Assembly: GCA_902586695.1 (NCBI GenBank)
Contig: CACIIL010000004.1
Location: 1-62,323, forward strand
Source of the DNA: an uncultured Alphaproteobacteria bacterium
GTDB lineage: Bacteria > Pseudomonadota > Alphaproteobacteria > HIMB59 > GCA-002718135
DNA length: 62,323 nt
Direction of reading: 5' to 3'
Shown here: positions 478 through 34,705 of the stretch, one piece after another
Layout of the letters: each line of letters starts with the position of its first letter
Position numbering within the stretch: the first letter of the stretch is position 1
Program-made: the position numbers and the translations under genes
The notes under the pieces: model-generated
Told to the model about the DNA's origin: nothing
What the model saw: only the letters and a program-made list of their open reading frames with translations
Database searches by the model: none

Positions 478-1262
478 TGAGTGAATCAAACAAACCTCTT
501 ATTGAAATTAAAGATCTTGTAAAAAGATTCGGTAATTTTACTGCATTAAATGGTGTTTCTTTAGATGTATATCCAGGTGAAGTTCATGCTCTTTTAGGAG
601 ACAATGGTGCCGGAAAATCAACCTTAATAAAAGTACTAGCCGGAGTACACCCAGCTACCTCTGGATCAATAGTTATAGATGGTAAAGAGGGAAAATTTTC
701 TACCCCAAGACAAGCAACAGACGCCGGTATTGGCACAGTTTATCAAGATCTTGCCTTGAATGCCTTAACTTCAGTTACTAGAAATTTCTTTCTTGGAAGA
801 GAAATTAAAAAGGGACCGGGATCATTTGGTATTATGCAAATGAATGAAATGGATAAAATTACAATTGAGGAAATGGCCAAAATAGGAATAAATATTTCTG
901 ATCCCACACAGCCTGTTGGAACGATGTCAGGAGGTCAAAGACAAACTTTAGCAATTGCTAGAGCTATTTATTTTGGAGCAAAAATTTTAATTCTCGATGA
1001 ACCTACTTCAGCTCTTGGTCAAAAACAGCAAATGGAAGTTTTAAAAACAATTAAACGTGTTCAAAGACTTGGGCATATAGCGATTATTTTAATTACACAT
1101 AATGAAATTCATGCCAGATTAATTGCTGATCGTTATACTTTTTTAAGTTTAGGAGAAGTAATCGGCAAAGGTCTAGCTGAGGAGCTTGGTGGTGATGATA
1201 TTAAAAAGCTTATGGCTGGAGGTGCAGAAATAGGTGATTTAAGAGACGAGCTTGGAGCTTAA
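477..1262 (+). CDS. Sugar ABC transporter ATP-binding protein, single NBD (FrcA-like)
   Basis: Cytoplasmic ATPase that powers the upstream permease. At 261 residues it holds one nucleotide-binding domain: Walker A GDNGAGKST (41-49), Q-loop VYQD (88-91), signature SGGQRQ (151-156), Walker B LILDEP (171-176) and the switch histidine in LITHNE (H208). Most CUT2 ATPases such as RbsA carry two fused domains and are about 500 residues; the single-domain form resembles FrcA of the rhizobial fructose transporter, and would have to work as a homodimer. The start overlaps the permease stop by one base. The periplasmic binding protein gene should lie upstream, outside the window. Confidence 0.88.
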   Translation: MSESNKPLIEIKDLVKRFGNFTALNGVSLDVYPGEVHALLGDNGAGKSTLIKVLAGVHPATSGSIVIDGKEGKFSTPRQATDAGIGTVYQDLALNALTSVTRNFFLGREIKKGPGSFGIMQMNEMDKITIEEMAKIGINISDPTQPVGTMSGGQRQTLAIARAIYFGAKILILDEPTSALGQKQQMEVLKTIKRVQRLGHIAIILITHNEIHARLIADRYTFLSLGEVIGKGLAEELGGDDIKKLMAGGAEIGDLRDELGA

Positions 1263-1312
1263 CATAGATTCTTATTGACTAAATATTCTACCTATATCAA
1301 AATACCATTTAA

Positions 1313-2161
1313 ATGTTGGAAATAAATAAGCCTTTATCAGATTATAAAAAAGTTTTGGATGAACTGCTTTTTGGAAGTGGTGTTGTGTTGTTTAAAAAAG
1401 TTTTTGATCTTAATAAAATTAATGAAGCCAGAGACATTGTTAATAAATTTGCAGAAAATCAAGATCAAAAAGAATCACATTTTAATTCAGAGGCAGAAGC
1501 TTCTGGTAAAATTCATTTACAGCAAAGAGTCTGGAATTTATTTGGCAAAGGTCAAGTATTCAGTGATTTAATTACTAATGACATTATTTTTAATGTAATA
1601 TCTAAATTATTAGGTACAGAATTTTTTTGCGGATCATATTGTGCGAGCCGTTTACTCCCAGGCTCTCTAGGTCAAGAATTACATCTTGATTATCCATATT
1701 GGGATTTTTATAAAAGTGAAACATTCCCAATTGGATTAAATAGCTCTTTTGCTCAAAATTGCCAAGTAACTATACCTCTTGATATTTGCTCAAAAGAATC
1801 TGGAGCCACAGCTTATATACCTGGATCACAAAAAAATCTTCATTACCCAACACAAAAAGATGATTTAACAAATAAGCAACAAATGATTGCTGAACCCGGA
1901 GATTTAGTCTTTTTTAATGGAAATTGTTGGCATGGAGCCTCTCCTAATAATTCAGATTATCAGAGAGCAGCTCTACTGATAGAATTTCTTCCTAAATACA
2001 TAAAGCCAGTTGAGGATTTGGTTTCATACTTAGATAAAGATTTTAAAGATAATAGTTCTGATAGAGTTAGGCAGTTATTAGGTTTAAATTATGAATATCC
2101 TAAAATTATGGATTCAAGTAAAAAACTCAATAATATTGGCATCGGTTATAAAACAAAATAA
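1313..2161 (+). CDS. Phytanoyl-CoA dioxygenase (PhyH) family protein
   Basis: A 282-residue protein of the Fe(II)/2-oxoglutarate-dependent PhyH family. The iron-binding facial triad is visible as H124-x-D126 in ELHLDYPYWD and a distal histidine (H207) in NCWHGAS, followed by an arginine (in YQRAALL) positioned to bind 2-oxoglutarate. Members hydroxylate very varied small molecules, so the substrate is unknown. It lies 50 bp behind the ABC ATPase and 54 bp before a Gfo/Idh/MocA dehydrogenase on the same strand; the group looks like one uptake and oxidation unit for a sugar-like or osmolyte-like compound. That grouping is inference. Confidence 0.8.
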   Translation: MLEINKPLSDYKKVLDELLFGSGVVLFKKVFDLNKINEARDIVNKFAENQDQKESHFNSEAEASGKIHLQQRVWNLFGKGQVFSDLITNDIIFNVISKLLGTEFFCGSYCASRLLPGSLGQELHLDYPYWDFYKSETFPIGLNSSFAQNCQVTIPLDICSKESGATAYIPGSQKNLHYPTQKDDLTNKQQMIAEPGDLVFFNGNCWHGASPNNSDYQRAALLIEFLPKYIKPVEDLVSYLDKDFKDNSSDRVRQLLGLNYEYPKIMDSSKKLNNIGIGYKTK

Positions 2162-2215
2162 TTAGTATTTTTTTTATAATTTATCTTTATAAAATTATTT
2201 GTTTTTGGAATATTT

Positions 2216-3361
2216 ATGAAAAATATTGGATTATTAGGATGTGGTCATATATCTGAAACTTATTTTAGAAGTCGTCAATATTTTAATAATATAAATATTA
2301 CTGCATGTGCAGATCTTAATTTAGAAGCAGCAAAAAAATGTGCAGATGAATATAATATAATTGTAAAAAATGTTGATGATCTTTTAGCTGACAAAACCAT
2401 TGATGTTATACTAAATCTTACCAATCCAACTGCACATTATAAAACTATAAAAAATACTCTCCTTGCAGGAAAACACTCTTATTGTGAAAAACCACTATCA
2501 ATTCAATTTGATCAAGGAAAAGAATTGATTGAATTAGCAAAATCAAAAAATTTATATTTAGGTAACGCACCTGATACTTTTCTAGGTGGAGGTGGTCAAT
2601 TAACAAAACAAATTATTGATAGTGGAGAAGTTGGAGATATTAAATTAGGCAATTTTACTTTTGCCTTTCCAGGAGTTCAATCTTGGCACCCAAACCCTGA
2701 ACCATGGTTTGTTGAAGGAGGAGGACCAATATTAGATATGGGACCTTATTATTATACAATGCTTGTAAATTTCCTTGGGCCAGCAAAATCAATAAAAGCA
2801 ATTGCATCTAAGGTTAGTGAGTTTAGAAAAATTGGAGAAGGACCTAGGAAAGGTTTAGAATTCAAAGTAGAAATTCCTACATCATATTATATTGTCATAG
2901 AGTTTGAAAATAAAGCTGTTATTCAAGGTTTTTTATCATTTGATGTAATTAATCATCAATCTAATTTTATAGATCTTTATGGCACCAAAGGCTCAATTAT
3001 TGGACCAGATCCAAATATGTTTGGAGGACCTATCAAAGTATCACTTGCAGAAGGAGGTGCATGGAAAGAATATAGTACAGAAGAAATGAAATTAGGAAAA
3101 ACAAATATATTTAATAAAAGTGGAAGATCAAACGAAGCTCCAAGAAATGCTAATTATAGAGGAGTGGGCTTATCTGATATGCTTTATTGCATTGATAATA
3201 ATTTAGAACATCGTTGTAATGGGGAATTAGTTTTACACGTTTTAGATATGCTTGATACTACTATTAAATCTGCAGAACAGTCTAAAACATTACAACTTAG
3301 AACTACTTGTAATAAAACAAAATTGTTTAATGAAAGAGATATAAATCTAATTACAAATTAA
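2216..3361 (+). CDS. Gfo/Idh/MocA family NAD(P)-dependent oxidoreductase
   Basis: A 381-residue dehydrogenase of the family that oxidises sugars, inositols and related polyols. The N-terminal Rossmann fold has GLLGCGHIS (5-13), the family motif CEKPLS (90-95) carries the catalytic lysine (K92), and the C-terminal alpha/beta domain contains GGGPILDMGPYYYTML with the conserved aspartate that normally helps bind substrate. The length is normal. It sits with a CUT2-type transporter and a PhyH dioxygenase, which fits sugar or polyol catabolism, but the exact substrate is not visible. Its stop lies two bases from the stop of the convergent glyoxalase gene. Confidence 0.85.
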   Translation: MKNIGLLGCGHISETYFRSRQYFNNINITACADLNLEAAKKCADEYNIIVKNVDDLLADKTIDVILNLTNPTAHYKTIKNTLLAGKHSYCEKPLSIQFDQGKELIELAKSKNLYLGNAPDTFLGGGGQLTKQIIDSGEVGDIKLGNFTFAFPGVQSWHPNPEPWFVEGGGPILDMGPYYYTMLVNFLGPAKSIKAIASKVSEFRKIGEGPRKGLEFKVEIPTSYYIVIEFENKAVIQGFLSFDVINHQSNFIDLYGTKGSIIGPDPNMFGGPIKVSLAEGGAWKEYSTEEMKLGKTNIFNKSGRSNEAPRNANYRGVGLSDMLYCIDNNLEHRCNGELVLHVLDMLDTTIKSAEQSKTLQLRTTCNKTKLFNERDINLITN

Positions 3362-3363
3362 TT

Positions 3364-3789
3364 TTACCAAGTTCCTGAATTTTTCATTGAAAACCAAGGT
3401 TCTTTATTTGGTAAAGATTCCCCCTCTTGAAGAATTTCAATAGAAATACCATCAGGTGATTTTACAAAAGCCATATGTCCATCACGAGGGGGTCGATTGA
3501 TTGTTACACCACTTTTCATTAAGTTATTACAAACTTCATAAATATTTTTTACACTATAAGCTAAATGTCCAAAATTTCTTCCACCTGTATATTCTTCAGG
3601 ATCCCAATTATAGGTTAACTCAAGTAGACCAGTTTTTTCATTACTGTTTTCAGCTGCAAGAAATATAAGAGTAAATCTTCCTTTTTCATTTTCAACTCTT
3701 TTAACCTCTTTTAATCCCAACTTTGTACAATAAAAGTCAAGAGAAGCTTCGATATCTTTAACTCTAACCATTGTATGTAAATATTTCAT
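3364..3789 (-). CDS. gloA: Glyoxalase I (lactoylglutathione lyase)
   Basis: A 141-residue cytoplasmic metalloenzyme that isomerises the methylglyoxal-glutathione hemithioacetal to S-lactoylglutathione. The two beta-alpha-beta-beta-beta modules are recognisable with the four metal ligands H5 (KYLHTMVRV), E57 (LLELTYNW), H75 (FGHLAYSV) and E118 (ISIEILQ). Length and start match bacterial GloA. The gene is convergent with the Gfo/Idh gene and divergent from ribF, sharing a roughly 100-bp spacer with it. Assignment to the glyoxalase superfamily is secure; GloA over other members rests on the overall motif pattern. Confidence 0.88.
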   Translation of the reverse strand: MKYLHTMVRVKDIEASLDFYCTKLGLKEVKRVENEKGRFTLIFLAAENSNEKTGLLELTYNWDPEEYTGGRNFGHLAYSVKNIYEVCNNLMKSGVTINRPPRDGHMAFVKSPDGISIEILQEGESLPNKEPWFSMKNSGTW

Positions 3790-3890
3790 ATTAATTTATT
3801 ATAATTTATATTAATAAAAGTCAGCTAAAAAAATTAAACTATTGAGGTATTTAGTTCTAATAAATGATAGTAAAATAAACATTCAAAATT

Positions 3891-4820
3891 GTGAAAGTAT
3901 ACAATCTAAATACAAAAAGTAATTTTAATCAAAAAAATTTATGCATAACTATAGGTAATTTTGATGGTCTGCATATTGGTCATCAATCTGTAATTCATAG
4001 ACTAAATCAAGAGGCTAAAAAATCTAATTTACAATCTACTATTATGAGCTTTACTCCTCACCCAAAAATATTTTTTTCTCAATCAACAAAATTATTTAAT
4101 ATTAATACTAAGCATGAAAAATTAAATATACTTAAAGATATGGGAATACATATATACGTAGATTTTGAATTTGATAATGAACTTGCTAATTTATCAGCTA
4201 ATGATTTTATTTTAAAAATAATCATAGAAAAATTAAATGTAAAAAAAATAGTTATTGGTTCTGATTTTAAATTTGGGAAAGAAAGAAAAGGAAATTTGGA
4301 AACATTAAGAGAATTATCTTTAACTTTAGATTTTGATTTAGTGGTAATTGATATTTTAAACATAAATAGTACTGAAAAAAAATTTTCCTCATCTTATATT
4401 AGAGATTTGATTACCAATGGGAATTTTGAAAATGTTTCTAAAATGCTTGGAAGAAATTGGAGTATGGTTGGTGAGGTCATAAAAGGAGATCAAAAAGCAA
4501 GAAAAATAAATTTTCCTACAGCAAATATAAAACCAAATAATAAAATATTACCAAAAAAAGGAGTTTATTGTGTTGCAGCTTTAATTGATTCCAAAGTCTA
4601 CAAGGCAATATCTAATATTGGATATAGACCAACTGTAGATGGTTCAGTGCTTTTATTGGAAACTCATTTGTTTGAATTTAATCATGATATTTATGGTAAA
4701 GAATTGACTGTTGAATTTCTAGCATTTATTAGGGCTGAAAAAAAGTTTGATAACTTTCAAGAATTAACTAAACAAATACAAAAAGATATAAAAACAGCAA
4801 AAATTTATCATCAAATTTAA
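3891..4820 (+). CDS. ribF: Bifunctional riboflavin kinase / FAD synthetase
   Basis: A 309-residue enzyme that phosphorylates riboflavin to FMN and adenylylates FMN to FAD. The N-terminal FAD synthetase domain shows ITIGNFDGLHIGHQ (19-32), a nucleotidyltransferase HxGH-type motif, and FSSSYIRDLI in the place of the usual ISSTxIR motif. The C-terminal riboflavin kinase domain shows GEVIKGDQKARKINFPTANI. A GTG start at 3891 is used; no ATG lies at a suitable place. The stop overlaps the ileS start by one base, and ribF-ileS-lspA is a common bacterial gene order. Confidence 0.93.
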   Translation: MKVYNLNTKSNFNQKNLCITIGNFDGLHIGHQSVIHRLNQEAKKSNLQSTIMSFTPHPKIFFSQSTKLFNINTKHEKLNILKDMGIHIYVDFEFDNELANLSANDFILKIIIEKLNVKKIVIGSDFKFGKERKGNLETLRELSLTLDFDLVVIDILNINSTEKKFSSSYIRDLITNGNFENVSKMLGRNWSMVGEVIKGDQKARKINFPTANIKPNNKILPKKGVYCVAALIDSKVYKAISNIGYRPTVDGSVLLLETHLFEFNHDIYGKELTVEFLAFIRAEKKFDNFQELTKQIQKDIKTAKIYHQI

Positions 4821-7594
4821 TGGAATATAAAAATACAATTTTTTTACCTAAAACATCTTTTGAGATGCGTGCTAATTTACCAACAAAAGAACCTAAGATT
4901 TTAGACGACTGGGACAAACAAAAGATTTTTTATAAGTTAAGGGAAAAATCAAAAGGAAGAGAGAAGTTTGTTCTTCACGATGGGCCGCCATATGCAAATG
5001 GTCATATTCATATGGGAACAGCACTAAATAAAATTTTAAAAGATGTAATTGTAAGAACTCAGCAAATGGCTGGAAAAGATTCAGTATATGTTCCAGGCTG
5101 GGATTGTCATGGTCTTCCAATTGAATGGAAAATAGAAGAGGGATATAGAAAAAAAGGGAAAAATAAAGACGATGTTCCTATTGTTCAATTTAGACAAGAA
5201 TGTAGAGAATTTGCAGAAAAGTGGATAGAAATTCAAAAAAAAGAATTTAGAAGATTAGGTGTAGAGGGGGATTGGGAAGATCCATATCTTACAATGTCTA
5301 ATAAAGCAGAGGCTCAAATTGTTCGTGAACTTGGAAAATTTTTAATAGATGAAAGCTTATATAAAGGGGCTAAGCCTGTCCTATGGTCTGTAGTTGAAAA
5401 AACTGCTTTGGCAGATGCAGAAGTCGAGTATGAAGATCATACTTCAAATACTATTTACGTAAAATTTTTAATTATTAATTCTTCTGATAAGGATCTTGAG
5501 GGAGCCAATATAGTAATTTGGACAACAACTCCATGGACAATCCCTGGAAATAGAGCATTAGCTTTTGGTAAAGATTTAAAATATTCTTTGATTGAAGTCG
5601 AGTCTATTTCAGATGGTTCTCTTGCAAGAGTCGGAGATAAACTTATTTTTGCTGAGGACTTAGTAAAAACAGTTATTAATGAGATTGGTATAACGGCATA
5701 TAAAAATTTAAAAACTTTTAATGGAGAAATTTTATCTGATTGTATTTGTGAACATCCATTTAAAAACATTGGATATGATTTTGAAGTAAAGCCATTTCAT
5801 GGAGATTTTGTTAATTTAGAACAAGGCACTGGTATTGTACATATTGCTCCAGGTCATGGTGATGATGATTATAATTTAGGTATAAAAAATGGTGTAGATA
5901 TTATTCAAACAGTTCAAGATGATGGAAAATTCAATCATCATGCAAAAGGCTTTGAAGATGAACATATTTATAAAGTTGATGATAAGATTGCTGAAAAACT
6001 AAATGAATTTTCTAAACTATTATTTAAAGGAACACTTCGTCATAGTTACCCTCATTCATGGCGATCAAAAGCACCACTAATTTATAGAAACACTCCACAG
6101 TGGTTTATATCAATGGAAAAAAATAATTTAAGAGATATTGCTCTTAAATCAATTGATGAAACTACTTTTTATCCTCCTCAGGGCCAAACCCGTTTACGCT
6201 CAATGATTGAGACAAGGCCTGATTGGTGTATTTCTAGACAAAGAGTATGGGGGGTTCCATTACCACTTTTTGTAAGCAAGAAAACAGGAAAACCTTTGAG
6301 AGATTTAGAAGTAGTTGATAGGATAGCTGAAATTTATGAAAAAGAAGGAAGTGACACGTGGTTTACAGAAGATCCTCAGAGATTTCTTGGAGAAAAATAT
6401 TCAATAGAAGACTATGAGCAAGTCAAAGATGTTGTAGAAGTATGGTTTGACAGTGGCTCAACACATGCTTTTTGTTTGGAAAAGAGAGAAGATCTTATAT
6501 GGCCAGCCTCAATGTATCTAGAAGGTAGCGACCAACACCGTGGTTGGTTTCATTCATCGTTATTAGAATCTTCTGGTACTAGAGGAAGAGCACCATATGA
6601 AAGTGTTTTAACTCATGGATTTGTCGTTGATGGCAAAGGTAGAAAAATGTCAAAGTCATTAGGAAATGTAATTTCTCCAGATGATATTTTAAAAAAATAT
6701 GGTGTTGATATTTTACGATTATGGGTTGTGGCTTCTGATTATTATGATGATTTAAAATTAGATAATGCAATTTTACAATCACAAACAGATTCTTATAGAA
6801 GAATTAGAAATACATTTCGTTATCTAATAGGCAATCTTTATGGTTTTAGTAATGATGAAAAAATTAGTGAAGTAGAATTTCCTGATTTAGAAAAATTTAT
6901 TTTACATAGATTGTGGGAAATAGATCAAATAATCTTGGACTGTGTCAAAAGTTTTAATTTTCACTTAATGTTTACTACTTTATTGAATTTTTGCTCTAAT
7001 GATCTGTCTGCATTTTATTTTGATATTCGCAAAGATATTATTTATTGTGATGGAAAAAAATCTAAAGAAAGAAGATCAGCAAGAACTCTTTTAGATATTA
7101 TATTTAACTATCTTGTAAGATGGCTTGCCCCATCCCTATCTTTCACAACCGAAGAAGCATGGAAAGCAAGAGATAATCTTACTAGTATACATTTAGAAGA
7201 TTTCTTAAACACCCCTGATGATTATAAAAATTCCAATATAAATGATACATGGACTATTCTTAAACAAATTCGAAAAGTAATAACAGGTGCTTTAGAGAAA
7301 AAAAGGGCTGAAAAAATAATTGGATCCAGTTTAGAAGCGCATATTGATATTTATCTTGAAAAATCAATTTTAGAAAAAGTCAAAAACTATCAAATGGATG
7401 AGATTAGTATTACCTCATCATTCTCCTTTCATGAATTAAAAAATAATACTGGAGGATTTTCTCTTGAAGATGTAAAAAATGTAGAAATAGTAGTATCAAA
7501 AACAAGTGGAAAAAAATGTCAGAGATGTTGGAAATATAAAGATAAATTAATTCGTGATGAAATATGTGATCGTTGCGAAGATGCAATTTCATAG
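4820..7594 (+). CDS. ileS: Isoleucyl-tRNA synthetase
   Basis: A 924-residue class I aminoacyl-tRNA synthetase that charges tRNA-Ile and edits valine. The HIGH motif appears as HIHM (62-65) in GPPYANGHIHMGTALN and the KMSKS motif in GRKMSKSLGN (about residue 608). The editing domain carries IVIWTTTPWTIPGNRAL, and a C-terminal zinc site is seen as CQRCWK followed by CDRCED. The length is normal for bacterial IleS with the zinc tail. The start overlaps the ribF stop by one base and the 3' end overlaps the best lspA start by 14 bp, so these genes form one operon. Confidence 0.97.
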   Translation: MEYKNTIFLPKTSFEMRANLPTKEPKILDDWDKQKIFYKLREKSKGREKFVLHDGPPYANGHIHMGTALNKILKDVIVRTQQMAGKDSVYVPGWDCHGLPIEWKIEEGYRKKGKNKDDVPIVQFRQECREFAEKWIEIQKKEFRRLGVEGDWEDPYLTMSNKAEAQIVRELGKFLIDESLYKGAKPVLWSVVEKTALADAEVEYEDHTSNTIYVKFLIINSSDKDLEGANIVIWTTTPWTIPGNRALAFGKDLKYSLIEVESISDGSLARVGDKLIFAEDLVKTVINEIGITAYKNLKTFNGEILSDCICEHPFKNIGYDFEVKPFHGDFVNLEQGTGIVHIAPGHGDDDYNLGIKNGVDIIQTVQDDGKFNHHAKGFEDEHIYKVDDKIAEKLNEFSKLLFKGTLRHSYPHSWRSKAPLIYRNTPQWFISMEKNNLRDIALKSIDETTFYPPQGQTRLRSMIETRPDWCISRQRVWGVPLPLFVSKKTGKPLRDLEVVDRIAEIYEKEGSDTWFTEDPQRFLGEKYSIEDYEQVKDVVEVWFDSGSTHAFCLEKREDLIWPASMYLEGSDQHRGWFHSSLLESSGTRGRAPYESVLTHGFVVDGKGRKMSKSLGNVISPDDILKKYGVDILRLWVVASDYYDDLKLDNAILQSQTDSYRRIRNTFRYLIGNLYGFSNDEKISEVEFPDLEKFILHRLWEIDQIILDCVKSFNFHLMFTTLLNFCSNDLSAFYFDIRKDIIYCDGKKSKERRSARTLLDIIFNYLVRWLAPSLSFTTEEAWKARDNLTSIHLEDFLNTPDDYKNSNINDTWTILKQIRKVITGALEKKRAEKIIGSSLEAHIDIYLEKSILEKVKNYQMDEISITSSFSFHELKNNTGGFSLEDVKNVEIVVSKTSGKKCQRCWKYKDKLIRDEICDRCEDAIS

Positions 7595-8060
7595 GCTATT
7601 AGTTTTGCAAAAAATTATAATTTTTTTATTTTTAGTTTTAGTTGATTTATTATCAAAATATTTTGTATTTAATTATATAGATTTAAATAGATTCATTAAA
7701 ATTACTTCTTTTCTTGATATTACACATATTCATAATTTTGGAGTATCATTCGGTTTATTTGCAGGAACAATTCCTGCACTAATTTTAATTATTATAGGTT
7801 TGATTGTAGTTTGTTTTATTGTTTATCTTTTATTTAATTCAAAAGATAATATCGAATATTGGGCTTTATTTATTATTATTTGTGGTGCATTTGGTAATAT
7901 TATAGACAGAACTATAAATGGATACGTTATAGATTTTATTTATTTTCACCTTAATCAATTTTATTGGCCTGCTTTTAATTTTGCTGATATTTATATCTCT
8001 ATTGGTATAATAATGATAATATTCAATATGTTAAAAAAAATAAATTTTAATCTAAAATGA
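7581..8060 (+). CDS. lspA: Prolipoprotein signal peptidase II
   Basis: Inner-membrane aspartyl protease that removes the signal peptide from diacylglyceryl-modified prolipoproteins. About 160 residues with four hydrophobic segments. The two catalytic aspartates lie in NIIDRTINGYVIDFI and FNFADIYISIG, and HIHNFGVSFGLF matches the conserved NxGxAFG region. An upstream in-frame ATG exists at 7554, but the start at 7581 gives the usual N-terminus and a shorter overlap with ileS. The next gene, a lipoprotein, overlaps by four bases (ATGA), so the processing enzyme and a likely substrate are made together. Confidence 0.92.
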   Translation: MQFHRLLVLQKIIIFLFLVLVDLLSKYFVFNYIDLNRFIKITSFLDITHIHNFGVSFGLFAGTIPALILIIIGLIVVCFIVYLLFNSKDNIEYWALFIIICGAFGNIIDRTINGYVIDFIYFHLNQFYWPAFNFADIYISIGIIMIIFNMLKKINFNLK

Positions 8061-8569
8061 AAAAAATTTTAATTATTTATTTCTTTATTTCTATATTTAC
8101 TCTTTCTTGTTCACAAATTAGGGAAAGCGCAGGTGTTAATAGAAAAAACATTGATGAATTCAAAGTAATTGAAAGCCCACCTCTTGTGATACCTCCAAAC
8201 TTTAATTTATTGCCTCCTGAGCAACTTTCAGAAAAAAATATAAATAATATTGAAAGTGATTTAGCAAAAGAAATTCTTTTTGGTCTTGAGGATAATGATT
8301 CAAAAAGTAATGTTGAATTATCAACTATGGAAAATATTTTAAATCAAACTGAAGCAAGTTCATTTGATGATAGTATAAGAGTTGAAATTGATGAAATTTT
8401 TGCATCGGAAAAAGAGATAAATTCAAAAAAATTTAACAACGATGAAGAGATTAGTAATTCAATTTTAGAGTCTGAAATTAAAAGGAATAAATTATTAAAT
8501 AATAATGATTCAAGTAAAGAAATTCCTAAAGAAAAAAATAAAAAGAAAAAAAGATTTTTCTTTTTTTAA
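8057..8569 (+). CDS. DUF3035 / BamF-like outer-membrane lipoprotein
   Basis: A 170-residue lipoprotein with signal peptide and lipobox ending at the cysteine in LFTLSC-like sequence (FTLSCSQ, C18). The motif NRKNIDEFKVIESPPLVIPP matches the RxPDEFxVxxRxPLxxPPxF pattern of the alphaproteobacterial DUF3035 family, described as BamF in the beta-barrel assembly complex; this link is from memory and moderate. After the motif the protein is acidic and probably disordered, ending in a lysine-rich stretch and four phenylalanines. It follows lspA with a four-base ATGA overlap, the position this family often holds in alphaproteobacteria. Confidence 0.7.
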   Translation: MKKILIIYFFISIFTLSCSQIRESAGVNRKNIDEFKVIESPPLVIPPNFNLLPPEQLSEKNINNIESDLAKEILFGLEDNDSKSNVELSTMENILNQTEASSFDDSIRVEIDEIFASEKEINSKKFNNDEEISNSILESEIKRNKLLNNNDSSKEIPKEKNKKKKRFFFF

Positions 8570-8577
8570 AATTGTAG

Positions 8578-9789
8578 ATGAAAATTAGTTTTAAAAATAT
8601 AAATTTTAATACAGATGTAAATCTTCCTGAAAGTATTGAAAATTTTAATTTAAAAATCAAACATATCTGTAATAATCTTTCAGCACTTAATATAGTCAGA
8701 GATAAGAAATTATTAATACAAACTATTGAGCAAACAGAAAAATTTAAAAAAAATAAAAAAAATTTTGTAATTTTTGGAACTGGAGGCTCAAATCTTGGTG
8801 CTAAAGCTTTAATAAATATTTGTATTAATAAACCAAAAAATATCTTTTTTTTTGATAATATTGATCCTTTATTTTTTCAAAATGAAATAATGAATCTGGA
8901 CATTGAGTATACAGGATTTATAGTTATATCCAAATCTGGCAAAACTCCTGAGACTCTTTCTCAATTAGGATGTATAATAAATATAGCAAAAGAAAAAAAT
9001 ATTTTAGAAATATTATATAAAAACATATTGGTTGTAACAGAATTTAATGAATCACCAATTTATAATTTTGCAAAAAAAAATTCACTTAAACTTTTAGAGC
9101 ACAAAAAAGATATTGGAGGCCGTTATTCAATTTTTTCAAATGTTGGAATGATCCCAGCTGTATTGGCGGGACTAGATGTAAAAAAAATACATCAAGGCGC
9201 ACTTAATGCTATTGATAAAAATGATTTTACAAATTCACTTCAATTTGCACAAATATTTAAATTTTGCTCTTCTAATTTTTTTTCTTTAAATGTTATGATG
9301 ACTTATTCGGATGGATTAAAGTATTTTGGAAAATGGTACCTGCAATTGTGGGCAGAAAGTATCGGTAAGAAAAATAGAGGCGTAACTGCGCTACATTCAA
9401 TTGGTACCACAGATCAACATAGTCAGCTTCAACTTTATTTAGATGGACCAAAAGATAAATTTTTTACTTTTATTAAAAGTAATCATAAAAATAAAGGCCT
9501 AAAAATTGATACTGAGATTATGAAATCAGAATCTGTAAATTATTTAATTAATAAAAAAATGGGAGATTTGATGCATGCTGAGCAAGAAGCTACTATCGAT
9601 ACATTTAAATTAAATAAATTCAAATTTCGTGAAATAATAATAGATAGCATTGATGAGGAATCTATTGGTGCATTGATGGCAAATAGCATAATTGAAACTA
9701 TTGCTTCATGTATCTATTTTAATGTTGATCCATTTGATCAACCCGCAGTTGAGCAAGGAAAAAAATTAACTGAAAAATATTTAAGTTAA
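8578..9789 (+). CDS. pgi: Glucose-6-phosphate isomerase
   Basis: A 403-residue divergent phosphoglucose isomerase interconverting glucose 6-phosphate and fructose 6-phosphate in the cytoplasm. Sugar-phosphate binding motifs are clear: FGTGGSNLGAKAL (about 64-76), VISKSGKTPETL, GGRYSIFSNVG with the arginine of the active site, and ALHSIGTTDQHSQLQLYLDG. The C-terminal QPAVEQGKKLTEKYL carries the expected lysine. It is shorter than the 540-residue E. coli form but resembles shorter bacterial Pgi proteins. It follows the lipoprotein gene by 8 bp and its stop overlaps the convergent rsmD gene by four bases. Confidence 0.9.
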   Translation: MKISFKNINFNTDVNLPESIENFNLKIKHICNNLSALNIVRDKKLLIQTIEQTEKFKKNKKNFVIFGTGGSNLGAKALINICINKPKNIFFFDNIDPLFFQNEIMNLDIEYTGFIVISKSGKTPETLSQLGCIINIAKEKNILEILYKNILVVTEFNESPIYNFAKKNSLKLLEHKKDIGGRYSIFSNVGMIPAVLAGLDVKKIHQGALNAIDKNDFTNSLQFAQIFKFCSSNFFSLNVMMTYSDGLKYFGKWYLQLWAESIGKKNRGVTALHSIGTTDQHSQLQLYLDGPKDKFFTFIKSNHKNKGLKIDTEIMKSESVNYLINKKMGDLMHAEQEATIDTFKLNKFKFREIIIDSIDEESIGALMANSIIETIASCIYFNVDPFDQPAVEQGKKLTEKYLS

Positions 9790-10346
9790 TTTAGAAATAA
9801 AATTTTGGTCTTTCCATAAATTTTTTCTTTATAAAAATTTAATTCTTTAGGAATTAATACCTTTTCATTTTTGCTTGTTTCTATTATTATTAAGGTGTTT
9901 TTTGATTTAATTTTATTTTCTAAAATTTTTATTAAAATTAAACTAATATTTTCTTTTTTGTAAGGTGGGTCTATAAAAATAATCGAAGGTTTAATTTCAA
10001 ATGTTCTATCGAGACCAATAATTGCTTTTTCAAATATAATTTCATATTCGTTATCCTTACATATTTTTTTACAGTTATTTTCTAAAATTCTAACTACACT
10101 ACTATTATTTTCAATAAAATAAGATTTTTTTATACCTCTTGAAATTGCTTCTAGTCCAACTAATCCTGATCCCGCAAAGATATCAATAATTGATTTATTG
10201 TTGTATATTTCAATTGAGTTTTTTATTGCATAACTTTCGACTATTGAAAATATAGCCTCTCTTTTTATTGCTGATGTCGGTCTAACGAAATTATTTGGTA
10301 TTGCTAATTTTGTTCTTTTATATTTGCCACCTGTTATATTAGACAT
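9786..10346 (-). CDS. rsmD: 16S rRNA (guanine(966)-N2)-methyltransferase RsmD
   Basis: A 186-residue SAM-dependent methyltransferase that modifies a guanine in the 30S subunit. The N-terminal VRPTSAIKREAIFSI pattern, the SAM-binding IDIFAGSGLVGLEAISRG and the catalytic IIFIDPPYKKE (DPPY) are diagnostic. Length is normal. The start overlaps the end of the upstream pseudouridine synthase by 8 bp, forming a C26 amidotransferase - rluB-like - rsmD minus-strand operon; the pairing of an RsuA/RluB enzyme with RsmD is common in alphaproteobacteria. Confidence 0.93.
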   Translation of the reverse strand: MSNITGGKYKRTKLAIPNNFVRPTSAIKREAIFSIVESYAIKNSIEIYNNKSIIDIFAGSGLVGLEAISRGIKKSYFIENNSSVVRILENNCKKICKDNEYEIIFEKAIIGLDRTFEIKPSIIFIDPPYKKENISLILIKILENKIKSKNTLIIIETSKNEKVLIPKELNFYKEKIYGKTKILFLN

Positions 10347-30670: not shown

Positions 30671-31123
30671 ATGATTAAAGAGTTGTCTTTTGAAACAAAA
30701 TTTGGATGGATTAATATTAAAGAAATAAACGAAAGAATAGAATCAATACAGTTTGGAAAAAAAAATAATAACTATTGTAAGAGCAAGACTCTTTTAAAAG
30801 TAAAAAATCAAATACAAAAATATTTAAAAGGTCAATTAAAAAATTTTGATCTAAATATTTTTTTAGAAGGAACAATTTTTCAAAAAAAAATTTGGAACGA
30901 ACTTAAAAAAATTCCATATGGTAAAACTAAATCCTATGGTCAAATTGCAAAAAAACTTAATACATCACCTAGGTTTGTTGGTAATGTTTGTGGATTAAAT
31001 AAACATTTAATTGTAGTACCATGCCATCGTGTTATTCGTTCTGATGGAACCCTTGGTGGATTTTCTGGTTTGGGTGGTATTAAATTAAAAAAAAGGTTAT
31101 TAGAATTAGAGAATGATGAGTAA
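30671..31123 (+). CDS. ogt: Methylated-DNA--protein-cysteine methyltransferase
   Basis: A 150-residue suicide DNA-repair protein that takes the alkyl group from O6-alkylguanine. The acceptor cysteine lies in VPCHRVIRSDGTLGGFSG, and the helix-turn-helix part is GKTKSYGQIAKKLNTSPRFVGNVCG. Length fits Ogt without the Ada regulatory domain. It overlaps the next amidotransferase gene by 11 bp and is divergent from rsmE. Confidence 0.93.
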   Translation: MIKELSFETKFGWINIKEINERIESIQFGKKNNNYCKSKTLLKVKNQIQKYLKGQLKNFDLNIFLEGTIFQKKIWNELKKIPYGKTKSYGQIAKKLNTSPRFVGNVCGLNKHLIVVPCHRVIRSDGTLGGFSGLGGIKLKKRLLELENDE

Positions 31124-31841
31124 AAAAATTATTATACTTCAACATATTGATATAGAAACACCAGGATATATTCTTGATTTAATGAAAAAAGATAATTTAA
31201 ATCTAACTACAATTCAATTAGATGAAGGGGAGAAAATACCAAATAATATTGAAGAGTTTGATGGAATGTTTTGCATGGGAGGCCCTATGGATACATGGAT
31301 GGAAGAAGAATTCCCTTGGCTTATTGAGGAAAAAAATAAAATAAAACAATTTGTTGTAGAGTTACAAAAACCCTACTTGGGTTTTTGTTTAGGATGTCAA
31401 TTATTAGGTGAGGTATTAGGTGGCGACGTTGTAAAATCTAAACCACCTGAAATAGGAATACTAGATATTAATATGGATCAATCTAGTTCAAATGATATTT
31501 TATTTGGTGAATTTAAGTCAACTATTAAGGCTTTGCAGTGGCATAGTTATGAAGTGCAAAATCTTGAATCCAACCATGATATAACATTACTTGGTTCTTC
31601 TCCAACAACTAAATATCAAATATTTAAATATAAAAATCATGCATACGGTATTCAGTTTCATATTGAAATTAAAAATAATACAGTTTCTCAGTGGGGATGT
31701 GTTCCTGAATATGAAAATGCTCTAGAAGATTGTATGGGCAAAGGAGCACTTAAAAAATTTGACAAAGTAGCACAAGAAAATATGAGCGAAATGAATAATA
31801 ATGCAGAAAATTTATATAATAATTTTAAAAAAATATTATAA
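31113..31841 (+). CDS. Type 1 glutamine amidotransferase-domain protein
   Basis: A 242-residue cytoplasmic protein with the GATase-1 fold. The nucleophile is in YLGFCLGCQLLGEVLGG and the histidine/glutamate pair in YGIQFHIEIKNN; both are present, so it should hydrolyse glutamine or a gamma-glutamyl compound. Stand-alone proteins of this kind resemble the amidotransferase half of GMP synthase, but it is not GuaA. It overlaps ogt by 11 bp. It lies just upstream of the glutamine riboswitch region on the same strand, separated by about 60 bp from the first dyad. Confidence 0.8.
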   Translation: MMSKKIIILQHIDIETPGYILDLMKKDNLNLTTIQLDEGEKIPNNIEEFDGMFCMGGPMDTWMEEEFPWLIEEKNKIKQFVVELQKPYLGFCLGCQLLGEVLGGDVVKSKPPEIGILDINMDQSSSNDILFGEFKSTIKALQWHSYEVQNLESNHDITLLGSSPTTKYQIFKYKNHAYGIQFHIEIKNNTVSQWGCVPEYENALEDCMGKGALKKFDKVAQENMSEMNNNAENLYNNFKKIL

Positions 31842-31933: not shown

Positions 31934-31990
31934 TCTATTTTTCTTATTTTAAACTTACAATTTTTAATATTATAATTAAATATATTTTTA

Positions 31991-32039
31991 CGTTCATCAT
32001 GTTTTACATGACGGAAGTAAGCGAAAGCTGAAGGAACGC
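31991..32039 (+). promoter_or_regulatory. Glutamine riboswitch aptamer 1 (glnA RNA motif)
   Basis: The sequence folds as the glutamine-binding glnA/downstream-peptide aptamer: P1 from CGTTC (31991-31995) with GAACG (32034-32038), P2 ATCATG with CATGA around a TTTTA loop, the conserved core CGGAAGTAAG, P3 AGC-GAAA-GCT, then TGAAGGAACGC. Core bases GGAAGTAAG and GAAGGAACG match what I recall of the published consensus. It is one of two tandem copies. Confidence 0.85.
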
Positions 32040-32056
32040 ATGCAGAGTTATTAAAT

Positions 32057-32105
32057 CGTTCAATCTGTTTTAACAGATCGGAAGTAGGTTATACCGAAGG
32101 AACGC
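32057..32105 (+). promoter_or_regulatory. Glutamine riboswitch aptamer 2 (glnA RNA motif)
   Basis: Second tandem aptamer, 17 bases after the first: P1 CGTTC (32057-32061) with GAACG (32100-32104), P2 ATCTGT with ACAGAT around TTTTA, core CGGAAGTAGG, P3 GGT-TAT-ACC, then CGAAGGAACGC. P2 and P3 differ in sequence from copy 1 while pairing is kept, which is covariation support within the window. Tandem copies would give a steeper glutamine response. Confidence 0.87.
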
Positions 32106-32144
32106 GGAACTTATATATTAATTTCCATAGCTAAGCATGATTTG

Positions 32145-32187: not shown

Positions 32188-32550
32188 TTATATGAATAAA
32201 TATTCTTTTTTGGGTTTAATTTTAGGTTTTACTTTTATTTCATAAAACTCTTCTGTTAAAAAATATTTTTTTACCCTCCTATCTTGATTATTTTCAACCT
32301 TCTTTAAAATCTTTTTATCTAATCCTTCACTAAGCAAATTTTGAATACTTGATCTTGATCCTAAAGACTTTGGTATATTTAAACATAATTTCTCATAGGA
32401 AATACCACCTAAATCATTATTACAAAAAATCTCCATAATGACAGCATGATGTAAAAGAGATTTATAAAAAAACTTATCAAAAATATTTGTGCTTTCAATA
32501 CTGTAGTACAAAGCTATTTTATTTAGTTCAATAATCCCTTTTACATTCAT
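32188..32550 (-). CDS. Winged-helix (MarR-like) transcriptional regulator
   Basis: A 120-residue DNA-binding protein. Residues about 25-110 form a winged helix: HHAVIMEIFCNN (helix 1), ISYEKLCLNIPKSLGSRSSIQNLLSEGLDKK (helix-turn-helix) and VENNQDRRVKKYFLTEEF (wing). It lies 39 bp behind amt on the same strand and may control it. The C-terminus as read here (after YEIKV) crosses the inverted repeat and is encoded by antisense of the amt signal sequence. If the segment is flipped, the protein ends NWIKNQKNIFNS with a stop at 33871, a more natural MarR-type terminal helix. Target and ligand are unknown. Confidence 0.72.
   Translation of the reverse strand: MNVKGIIELNKIALYYSIESTNIFDKFFYKSLLHHAVIMEIFCNNDLGGISYEKLCLNIPKSLGSRSSIQNLLSEGLDKKILKKVENNQDRRVKKYFLTEEFYEIKVKPKIKPKKEYLFI
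32192..32245 (+). pseudogene. 17-codon ORF: displaced 5' end of amt
   Basis: Directly behind the glutamine riboswitches, GGAG at 32182-32185 is spaced six bases from the ATG at 32192. The ORF reads MNKYSFLGLILGFTFIS then stops. It is the first part of a signal peptide. The last five residues FTFIS are repeated, in the same frame, at the start-less 5' end of amt on the opposite strand, because both use one arm of a 16-bp inverted repeat. I therefore read it as the first 17 codons of amt, cut from the rest by inversion of the 32244-33818 segment. A stand-alone small regulated peptide is the alternative. Confidence 0.75.
32228..32243 (+). repeat. Inverted repeat arm, left
   Basis: TTTACTTTTATTTCAT, a perfect 16-bp match to the reverse complement of 33819-33834. 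It lies in the 17-codon ORF on the plus strand and in the last codons of the winged-helix gene on the minus strand. It marks the left breakpoint of the proposed inversion. Confidence 0.9.
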
Positions 32551-32589
32551 AATTTTCTCAATTTACTAAATTCAAGATAGGTTAATAAT

Positions 32590-33834
32590 CTAATCTCGAA
32601 TTGAATATGCCATTACTCCAACTTCCGCTTTATCAGTTCCAAGCTTTTCTGCTTCTTCGCTTATTCTTATTCCAAAACTAATTTTCATTAGGTACCAAAC
32701 AATAAAGGCAGCAACGAAAACAAAAATGTTGATCCATAAGATTCCATAGAGCTGAGAAGCAAAATTAGTACCAGAATTAGTAAGTGGTACAGCTAATGTC
32801 CCCCAAATACCTGCAAAACCGTGAACCGGAATAGCTCCAACAACATCATCTATTTTAAATCTAATCAATAATAATGTTCCGTAATAGACAACTAATCCTC
32901 CAATTCCTCCAATAATTATTGCCATGATAGGAGAAGGTGTAAGAGGCTCTGCAGTAATAGCTACAAGTCCACCTAAAGCACCGTTAAGCATCATCACAAC
33001 ATCAGTTTTACCACCAACTAATCTTGACACGGCAGCACAAACCATAACACCTGCACAAGCGGCTAGGTTAGTGTTAATAAAAATAGTTGCGATAGAAGTT
33101 GAGTCATCAAAAGAGCCTAAAGCTAATTGTGATCCACCGTTAAATCCAAACCATCCTAACCATAAAATAAATACACCTAGTGTTGCTAATGGTATTGAAG
33201 AACTGGCAAAAGGCTCCATTGCTTTAGGGTCACCTTTATCAGTAAATCTGCCAAGTCTTGGGCCAAGAAGTATAGCTCCTGCAAGTGCCGCAGCACCTCC
33301 TGCACTATGAACTAATGTTGAACCAGCAAAATCTGAAAAACCAGCAGCTGCAAGATGACCTCCACCCCATTGCCATCCCATTTCGATTGGATATATTATA
33401 CCAGCTAAAATTGCACAAAATAAAAAGAATGGCCAAATTTTAATTCTTTCAGCCATCGTACCTGATACTATAGAGCAAGTTGTAGCACAAAATACCATTT
33501 GGAAAAACCAATCTGAACCATCCGAATAACCAGTTTCAATTGAGCTTGCATCACTCCATGGGAGGAATGTTCCAATAAATCCTCCTTCTGGGATGCCGTA
33601 TGCTAAATTATATCCAACAAACCAAAACATCAAACCTGCTATAGAATATAATCCTATATTTTTTGCAGCTATTGTTGCAACGCTTTTAGATGTAACTAAC
33701 CCAGACTCTAACATTGCAAAACCAGCTGCCATCCACATGACTAAAAAACCACCTATTAAAAATAAGAGTGTGTTTAAAATATAGGATACTTCAGGATCAA
33801 CAGCCGCAAAAGCAGTTGATGAAATAAAAGTAAA
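32590..33834 (-). CDS. amt: Ammonium transporter, start codon displaced
   Basis: Inner-membrane Amt/Rh-family ammonium channel with about eleven helices. Conserved parts include AVDPEVSYILNT, WMAAGFAMLESGLV, DFAGSTLVHSAGGAAALAGA, WFGFNGGS and PVHGFAGIWG with channel histidines. The frame runs open from the stop at 32590 to the inverted repeat at 33819-33834 and then meets a TGA at 33847-33849 with no ATG, GTG or TTG in frame before it. The first ATG is at 33738, inside the first helix, and would destroy the signal peptide and topology. Joining the frame at FTFIS to the ORF at 32192 gives a full 426-residue protein with signal peptide, close to the 428 of E. coli AmtB. As drawn the gene is probably silent. 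Confidence 0.88.
   Translation of the reverse strand, partial: FTFISSTAFAAVDPEVSYILNTLLFLIGGFLVMWMAAGFAMLESGLVTSKSVATIAAKNIGLYSIAGLMFWFVGYNLAYGIPEGGFIGTFLPWSDASSIETGYSDGSDWFFQMVFCATTCSIVSGTMAERIKIWPFFLFCAILAGIIYPIEMGWQWGGGHLAAAGFSDFAGSTLVHSAGGAAALAGAILLGPRLGRFTDKGDPKAMEPFASSSIPLATLGVFILWLGWFGFNGGSQLALGSFDDSTSIATIFINTNLAACAGVMVCAAVSRLVGGKTDVVMMLNGALGGLVAITAEPLTPSPIMAIIIGGIGGLVVYYGTLLLIRFKIDDVVGAIPVHGFAGIWGTLAVPLTNSGTNFASQLYGILWINIFVFVAAFIVWYLMKISFGIRISEEAEKLGTDKAEVGVMAYSIRD
33819..33834 (-). repeat. Inverted repeat arm, right
   Basis: ATGAAATAAAAGTAAA on the plus strand, the exact reverse complement of 32228-32243. It lies at the 5' edge of the recognisable amt reading frame. The flanking bases differ on both sides, so the match is exactly 16 bp. 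It marks the right breakpoint of the proposed 1.6-kb inversion. Confidence 0.9.
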
Positions 33835-33961
33835 TTGGATAAAGAATCAAAAAAATATATTTAATAGTTAGGAAAAAATTATGTTATTTTATATAGATTT
33901 TAATAAAAACAAAACTAAATACTTAGAAGAGAATTTATCTCTTTCACTTATGGAGGATTTT

Positions 33962-34153
33962 ATGAAAACATCATTTATTATTGCGAAAAAAAACTATACA
34001 TTAAAATATGAAAGAAAAATGCCTGAAAAAGAGGTATTAAAAATGAAATCTTTTGTCACAAAAAAAGGTGATAAACTTGTTAAGACAAATAATTTTAAGA
34101 TAAAAAAAACAATTGAAAAAGATAATGAGCGTATTTTTGAAGTTATTCTATAA
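33962..34153 (+). CDS. Small basic protein of unknown function
   Basis: A 63-residue ORF beginning MKTSFIIAKKNYTLKYERKM, rich in lysine, with likely beta strands at both ends (ERIFEVIL). The start at 33962 is preferred because GGAGG lies five bases upstream, the best ribosome binding site in the area; an in-frame ATG at 33881 would give 90 residues. Its stop abuts the convergent yqgE stop with no spacer. In the flipped orientation of the amt segment it would follow the winged-helix gene on the same strand, so it may belong to that nitrogen operon. No family recognised. Confidence 0.55.
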   Translation: MKTSFIIAKKNYTLKYERKMPEKEVLKMKSFVTKKGDKLVKTNNFKIKKTIEKDNERIFEVIL

Positions 34154-34705
34154 TTAGGCTCTGCCTGAATATTGAGATAATTTATTGGGATCAACTCCTA
34201 GTAAATTATAAGCTTTGTTCCATTTATTTGATACTTCATCGTCAAATAAAAAGTTAGAGTCAACTGAAAGAGTTACCCAACTGTTTGCAAGGATTTCTTT
34301 TTCTATTTGTCCTGGTCCCCATCCAGCATATCCAAGAGCCAAAATGCTATTTTTAGGACCTTTTCCTTTTGATAAGTCTTCAAAAAACTCTGATGTACTT
34401 GTTAGTGCTACACCTTTTTCAATTGAAAGGGTTTCTTTTTGTATAACTTCATCTGAATGCAAAACAAAACCTCTTCCGCTTTCAACAGGTCCACCATAGC
34501 GAATATATAGTTTTTTATTTTCGAGTGGTTTATCAATGCCCAGTTGTTCTAATAAATCAGGGTATAAATCATAATCTATCTTTTTATTTATTATTATTCC
34601 CATAGCTCCTTCAGATGAATGAGCACACATATATATAACAGTTTTATAAAACCTCTCATCTTCTAGAGATGGCATTGAAATTAATAGTTTTCCTGTTAAA
34701 TCCAT
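34154..34705 (-). CDS. YqgE/AlgH family protein (UPF0301)
   Basis: A 183-residue cytoplasmic protein of the conserved UPF0301 family. MDLTGKLLISMPSLEDERF and VIYMCAHSSEGAMGIIINK are the family signatures, followed by YRGGPVE-type sequence (RYGGPVESGRGFVLHS) and LGYAGWGPGQIEKEI. The biochemical role is unknown. It is divergent from the DsbD/ScsB-like gene with 69 bp between the starts; yqgE and dsbD-type genes are often neighbours in alphaproteobacteria. Confidence 0.93.
   Translation of the reverse strand: MDLTGKLLISMPSLEDERFYKTVIYMCAHSSEGAMGIIINKKIDYDLYPDLLEQLGIDKPLENKKLYIRYGGPVESGRGFVLHSDEVIQKETLSIEKGVALTSTSEFFEDLSKGKGPKNSILALGYAGWGPGQIEKEILANSWVTLSVDSNFLFDDEVSNKWNKAYNLLGVDPNKLSQYSGRA

Follow-up and report, generated by a model that had tools for sequence, protein, structure and literature searches.

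An inverted amt segment beside tandem glutamine riboswitches in a marine alphaproteobacterial draft genome, probably an amplification artefact

We report that, in the 62,323-nucleotide stretch of DNA analysed here (the window), inversion of a 1.6-kb segment has parted the ammonium transporter gene amt from its start codon, from part of its signal peptide and from the two glutamine riboswitches that would otherwise precede it. Our preferred reading, to which we attach a probability of roughly two in three, is that this inverted order is a template-switching artefact of phi29 multiple displacement amplification (MDA) of single-cell DNA. The weights given here and below to the competing explanations are matters of judgement, not of calculation. 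Throughout, G000 denotes the window's own genome and G011 its sister genome and closest relative.

Structure of the locus and its in-silico flip

The left anchor of the locus is a class-I glutamine amidotransferase (GATase) gene on the plus strand (31113..31841; Pfam PF00117, E=5e-21), which in relatives L003, L022, L023 and L032 likewise precedes the riboswitches and amt and shares their strand. Two glutamine riboswitches follow on the plus strand, at 31989..32042 and 32055..32108, with RF01739 matches of 64 and 60.5 bits that both lie above the gathering threshold of 35 bits. Behind them a plus-strand open reading frame (32192..32245) reads MNKYSFLGLILGFTFIS and then stops. This frame is a product of the inversion and represents the detached start of amt; its counterpart in G011 continues as MNKYSFLGLILGFTFISSTAFAA. 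The left arm of a perfect 16-bp inverted repeat, TTTACTTTTATTTCAT, lies on the plus strand at 32228..32243 and marks junction J1, and the right arm, the exact reverse complement on the minus strand at 33819..33834, marks junction J2.

The inverted segment itself (32244..33818, with no strand of its own) carries two genes on the minus strand. The first is a small conserved gene (32244..32550) whose C-terminal tail has been severed by the inversion. The second is the body of amt (32593..33834, running into the right arm), which encodes a marine-type ammonium transporter scoring 556.9 bits against TIGR03644, above the curated cut-off of 514, and 331 bits against PF00909. The amt frame is open from FTFISSTAFAAVDPEVSY (FTFISSTAFAA) but lacks a start codon, there being no ATG, GTG or TTG in frame ahead of the internal methionine of a 382-aa ORF. 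Beyond the right arm, the sequence and its comparison with G011 place the severed C-terminal codons of the small gene (WIKNQKNIFNS*) on the plus strand at 33835..33868. Two right anchors complete the locus: orfE, a small conserved ORF on the plus strand (33881..34153) that in relatives occupies the same strand as amt, and an algH-like gene (DUF179) on the minus strand (34154..34705; PF02622, E=2e-44), the order of which is preserved in relatives.

When 32244-33818 is flipped in silico, a complete Amt of 426 aa is obtained directly behind the two glutamine riboswitches, 98% identical to the Amt of G011 and equal to it in length. The same operation repairs the C-terminus of the small gene, which then ends ...WIKNQKNIFNS* (YEIKVNWIKNQKNIFNS) and is 119 aa long, as is its G011 counterpart ending ...WIRLQKKIYNS*. 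Both reading frames are restored exactly. The breakpoints are close to the gene ends, and the flip hardly alters ORF length. That two genes are restored at once, in agreement with every relative, takes the observation beyond chance.

These results reproduce most of what a preliminary description of the locus had claimed, namely the coordinates and sequence of the repeat, the riboswitch-led plus-strand ORF that runs into a stop, the startless minus-strand amt frame, the pair of upstream glutamine riboswitches, and the 426-residue Amt obtained on flipping; the repair of the small gene's tail is an addition to it. The same description had labelled the small gene 'winged-helix', for which we find no support in Pfam, NCBIfam or PDB: there is no Pfam match up to E=5 and no NCBIfam match, and the PDB gives only an insignificant one (E=0.66).

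Gene order and repeat arms in related genomes

Relatives gathered by protein search provided 20 loci in which amt is accompanied by one or more of the outer flanking genes GATase, orfE and algH; two of these loci, L026 and L048, are probably one contig. The order GATase – two glutamine riboswitches – amt – small gene – orfE – (algH) is common to all 20, with amt co-directional with orfE and opposed to algH, which is also the arrangement obtained by flipping the window. The order as read in the window, in which amt is OFF, occurs in none of the 20 (0/20), and all other species are seen in the ON state only. Of the loci scanned in relatives, 18 extend far enough upstream of amt to be informative, and all 18 have tandem glutamine riboswitches immediately before the gene on its own strand. 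Against G011 the flipped window aligns as a single 3.7-kb HSP (83.4%), whereas the window as read breaks into three alignment pieces of which the middle one is reversed.

Because all 20 related loci are ON and the flip is collinear with G011, the ON order is, as judged from these sequence comparisons, ancestral, and the order in the window derived and unique. Comparison of the locus among relatives thus upholds the earlier view of the window as the broken, inverted state. The normal locus, with its tandem glutamine riboswitches ahead of amt, is conserved across the genus. The pair itself resembles other examples of the RF01739 glutamine riboswitch in having two above-gathering aptamers in tandem upstream of nitrogen genes, and differs from them only in that the inversion detaches it from amt in the assembly.

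Two further observations concern this arrangement. Loci L005, L007, L018 and L020 contain two consecutive amt genes, each with its own tandem glutamine riboswitch pair. A second tandem pair is also present in G000 itself (L151, contig C13, 5690-5811), between glnB (P-II)-like and glnA-like ORFs, so that G000 has two nitrogen operons with riboswitches arranged in tandem.

The left arm of the repeat keeps 15 of its 16 bases in G011, as would be expected of a sequence that codes for a portion of the conserved signal peptide, but the right arm keeps only 6 of 16 (ATAATATGGTGCTTGG in G011 versus ATGAAATAAAAGTAAA in the window). The exact 16-mer occurs in its own genome at the two arms only, and is absent from the 40 relatives searched. 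Perfect inverted repeats of at least 16 bp (spacing 500-10,000) number 81 pairs in the 1.07 Mb of G000, and the window holds 5 such pairs compared with ~2 in Markov-simulated sequence. A 16-bp inverted repeat alone is unremarkable in this AT-rich genome, and the length of the arms is near chance.

Recombinases and inverton features

A programmed, reversible inversion (phase variation) that toggles the riboswitch-controlled amt on and off would account for the perfect 16-bp arms and for the exact restoration of both reading frames on flipping, and G000 does encode a tyrosine recombinase. The locus resembles phase-variable invertons such as fimS and e14/Pin (PMC4272514, PMC11892184) in that inverted repeats flank a segment whose orientation governs whether a gene can be expressed. 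The resemblance does not extend to other inverton features, since the recombination sites are not conserved and no linked or dedicated invertase was found. Moreover, the arms lie inside coding sequence, the OFF state occurs in no relative, and in the window's species, represented here by one genome, no second orientation has been seen.

With respect to enzymes, neither a serine resolvase/invertase (PF00239) nor an IS110-type protein (PF01548) was matched in G000, a genome that is 74.9% complete. The single tyrosine recombinase (L189, contig C25, 1880-2938) is a protein of 352 aa that is 90% identical in G011 and G020 and is unlinked to the amt locus. Searches recovered it from 18 of 22 relatives within the genus and from none of 14 genomes belonging to the sister family. 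It scores far below the NCBI cut-offs for XerC/XerD. A protein so highly similar and genus-wide in its distribution is probably a housekeeping enzyme.

The natural on/off inversion that had been envisaged is accordingly left unsupported by the unconserved arms, by the absence of the 16-mer from the 40 relatives and by the lack of a dedicated invertase among the proteins found. We regard phase variation at this locus as highly improbable. We judge just as improbable its fuller form, in which a streamlined marine alphaproteobacterium would use species-specific short repeats to switch ammonium uptake in single cells, with the genus-wide tyrosine recombinase or general recombination as the motor.

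Age of the inversion and amplification chimeras

Over the 426 codons of amt, the flipped window and G011 differ by ~58 synonymous and 10 non-synonymous changes (dS 0.22, dN 0.010, dN/dS ~0.046), with no frameshift or stop relative to G011. The leader, the riboswitches and the detached signal-peptide codons are likewise undecayed. An amt so intact and constrained implies that the inversion either arose extremely recently, can reverse, or is an artefact. These observations contradict the suggestion of a fixed mutation, that is, an old rearrangement that has left amt either as a pseudogene or dependent on a new minus-strand start for its expression. The internal methionine would indeed yield a 382-aa ORF, but this form would be without the signal peptide and N-terminus found in the compared relatives, and we consider a rearrangement of this age the least likely of the explanations weighed here.

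A recent event might nevertheless have been real. In this case an accidental inversion between chance 16-bp repeats, by recombination or by template switching during replication, would have broken amt and the small gene in the sampled cell or its very recent ancestors, creating a rare and probably deleterious mutant. A single event of this kind yields both junctions at the arms, and the undecayed amt frame fits its recency. Flipping of a segment between short inverted repeats is on record for E. coli (Schofield, Agbunag & Miller 1992, as cited in PMC4272514) and resembles the amt case in that respect; the amt case differs in that it is a single observation from an uncultured genome and nothing independent points to its presence in a living cell. 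Loss of a conserved ammonium transporter should, however, be selected against, making it improbable that such a mutant would be caught in one sampled cell, and amplification makes such junctions far more often (PMC1855051; G011 contig C9, described below). We therefore rank the artefact above a real inversion, cells with a freshly broken amt being rare and chimeras being frequent in amplified genomes, and hold the accidental inversion to be unlikely, though second among the explanations.

By its assembly statistics G000 (57 contigs, 0.2% contamination) has the appearance of a single-amplified genome, as do its relatives of the same genus (55-89% complete, 20-170 contigs), and those public relatives retrieved with this locus order are 'AG-...' isolates; from this we infer a single-cell origin for G000. 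Among MDA chimeras, 85% are inverted, mostly joining segments <10 kb apart, and >70% are primed at 2-21 nt of complementarity (Lasken & Stockwell 2007, PMC1855051). The amt segment corresponds well to this description, being joined in inverted orientation with its ends 1.6 kb apart and with 16 bp of complementarity at both junctions.

In the mechanism we envisage, 3' ends displaced during phi29 MDA would have annealed to the opposite strand through the 16-bp inverted repeat and primed synthesis anew. An MDA chimera typically has one junction and an intervening deletion (PMC1855051), whereas at the amt locus a clean inversion is seen with its two junctions. One fold-back would account for one of these junctions and no more, so that to make both the polymerase would have had to switch template twice at this pair of repeats, and the chimeric product would then have come to dominate this stretch of the assembly. 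The chromosome of the cell would most likely retain the ordinary order of two glutamine riboswitches, complete amt, small gene and orfE. The presence of both junctions within one contig counts against the artefact, as one recombination event would suffice to produce them.

A misjoin by the assembler, with no chimeric DNA behind it, is a still weaker candidate than phase variation. The assembly is fragmented, as its 57 contigs attest, but the shared arm is only 16 bp long. The k-mers usual in short-read assembly exceed this length, so that reads crossing the junction were probably needed.

Further inversions were sought by comparing strand orientation between G000 and G011, and between G000 and part of G032. 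Only at the amt locus did a single contig contain both junctions; elsewhere the clear flips fell at the ends of G011 contigs. Across the ~0.58 Mb aligned between G000 and G011 we saw neither a further clear inversion with two junctions nor, in G000, a clear fold-back, and self-comparison of the G000 contigs disclosed no long inverted duplicates. Contigs C48-C52 (masked, N) and C53-C57 of G000 fall outside these comparisons. A short stretch of G000 contig C2 (71222-71557) is opposite in orientation and also moved with respect to G011 contig C5, and is not an in-place inversion.

The sister genome provides direct precedent for amplification chimeras. The first 3,479 positions of G011 contig C9 (L174, 1-3479) form a 3.48-kb fold-back at a 6-bp inverted microhomology, AAAGAG, which fuses DapF to TrmD, and the contig stops at the point where repetition would set in. 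Annotation of G011 would as a consequence list a false fused DapF/TrmD gene, whereas dapF and trmD are each open over their full length in G000. In G011 contig C2 (L161, 1-9573) there is a terminal inverted piece together with a 3,434-bp perfect direct duplication, which is probably another amplification chimera. Broken dapF and trmD are hard to square with a living cell, and the structures on C9 and C2 are for this reason best read as amplification artefacts. The C9 fold-back is undoubtedly a chimera, and sets a precedent for the amt locus. An artefact had been one of the options in the preliminary description, and it is now the best supported of them, given that the relatives are all ON, the arms are not conserved, amt is intact and the sister genome contains a chimera.

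If the inversion were real, streamlined open-ocean bacteria would be hedging their bets on nitrogen uptake by inverting DNA. The more general message is one of caution, in that draft genomes which probably derive from single cells may contain short-repeat inverted segments that mimic phase variation by restoring genes on paper. To call such segments switches demands conservation of the arms in relatives together with reads from unamplified DNA.
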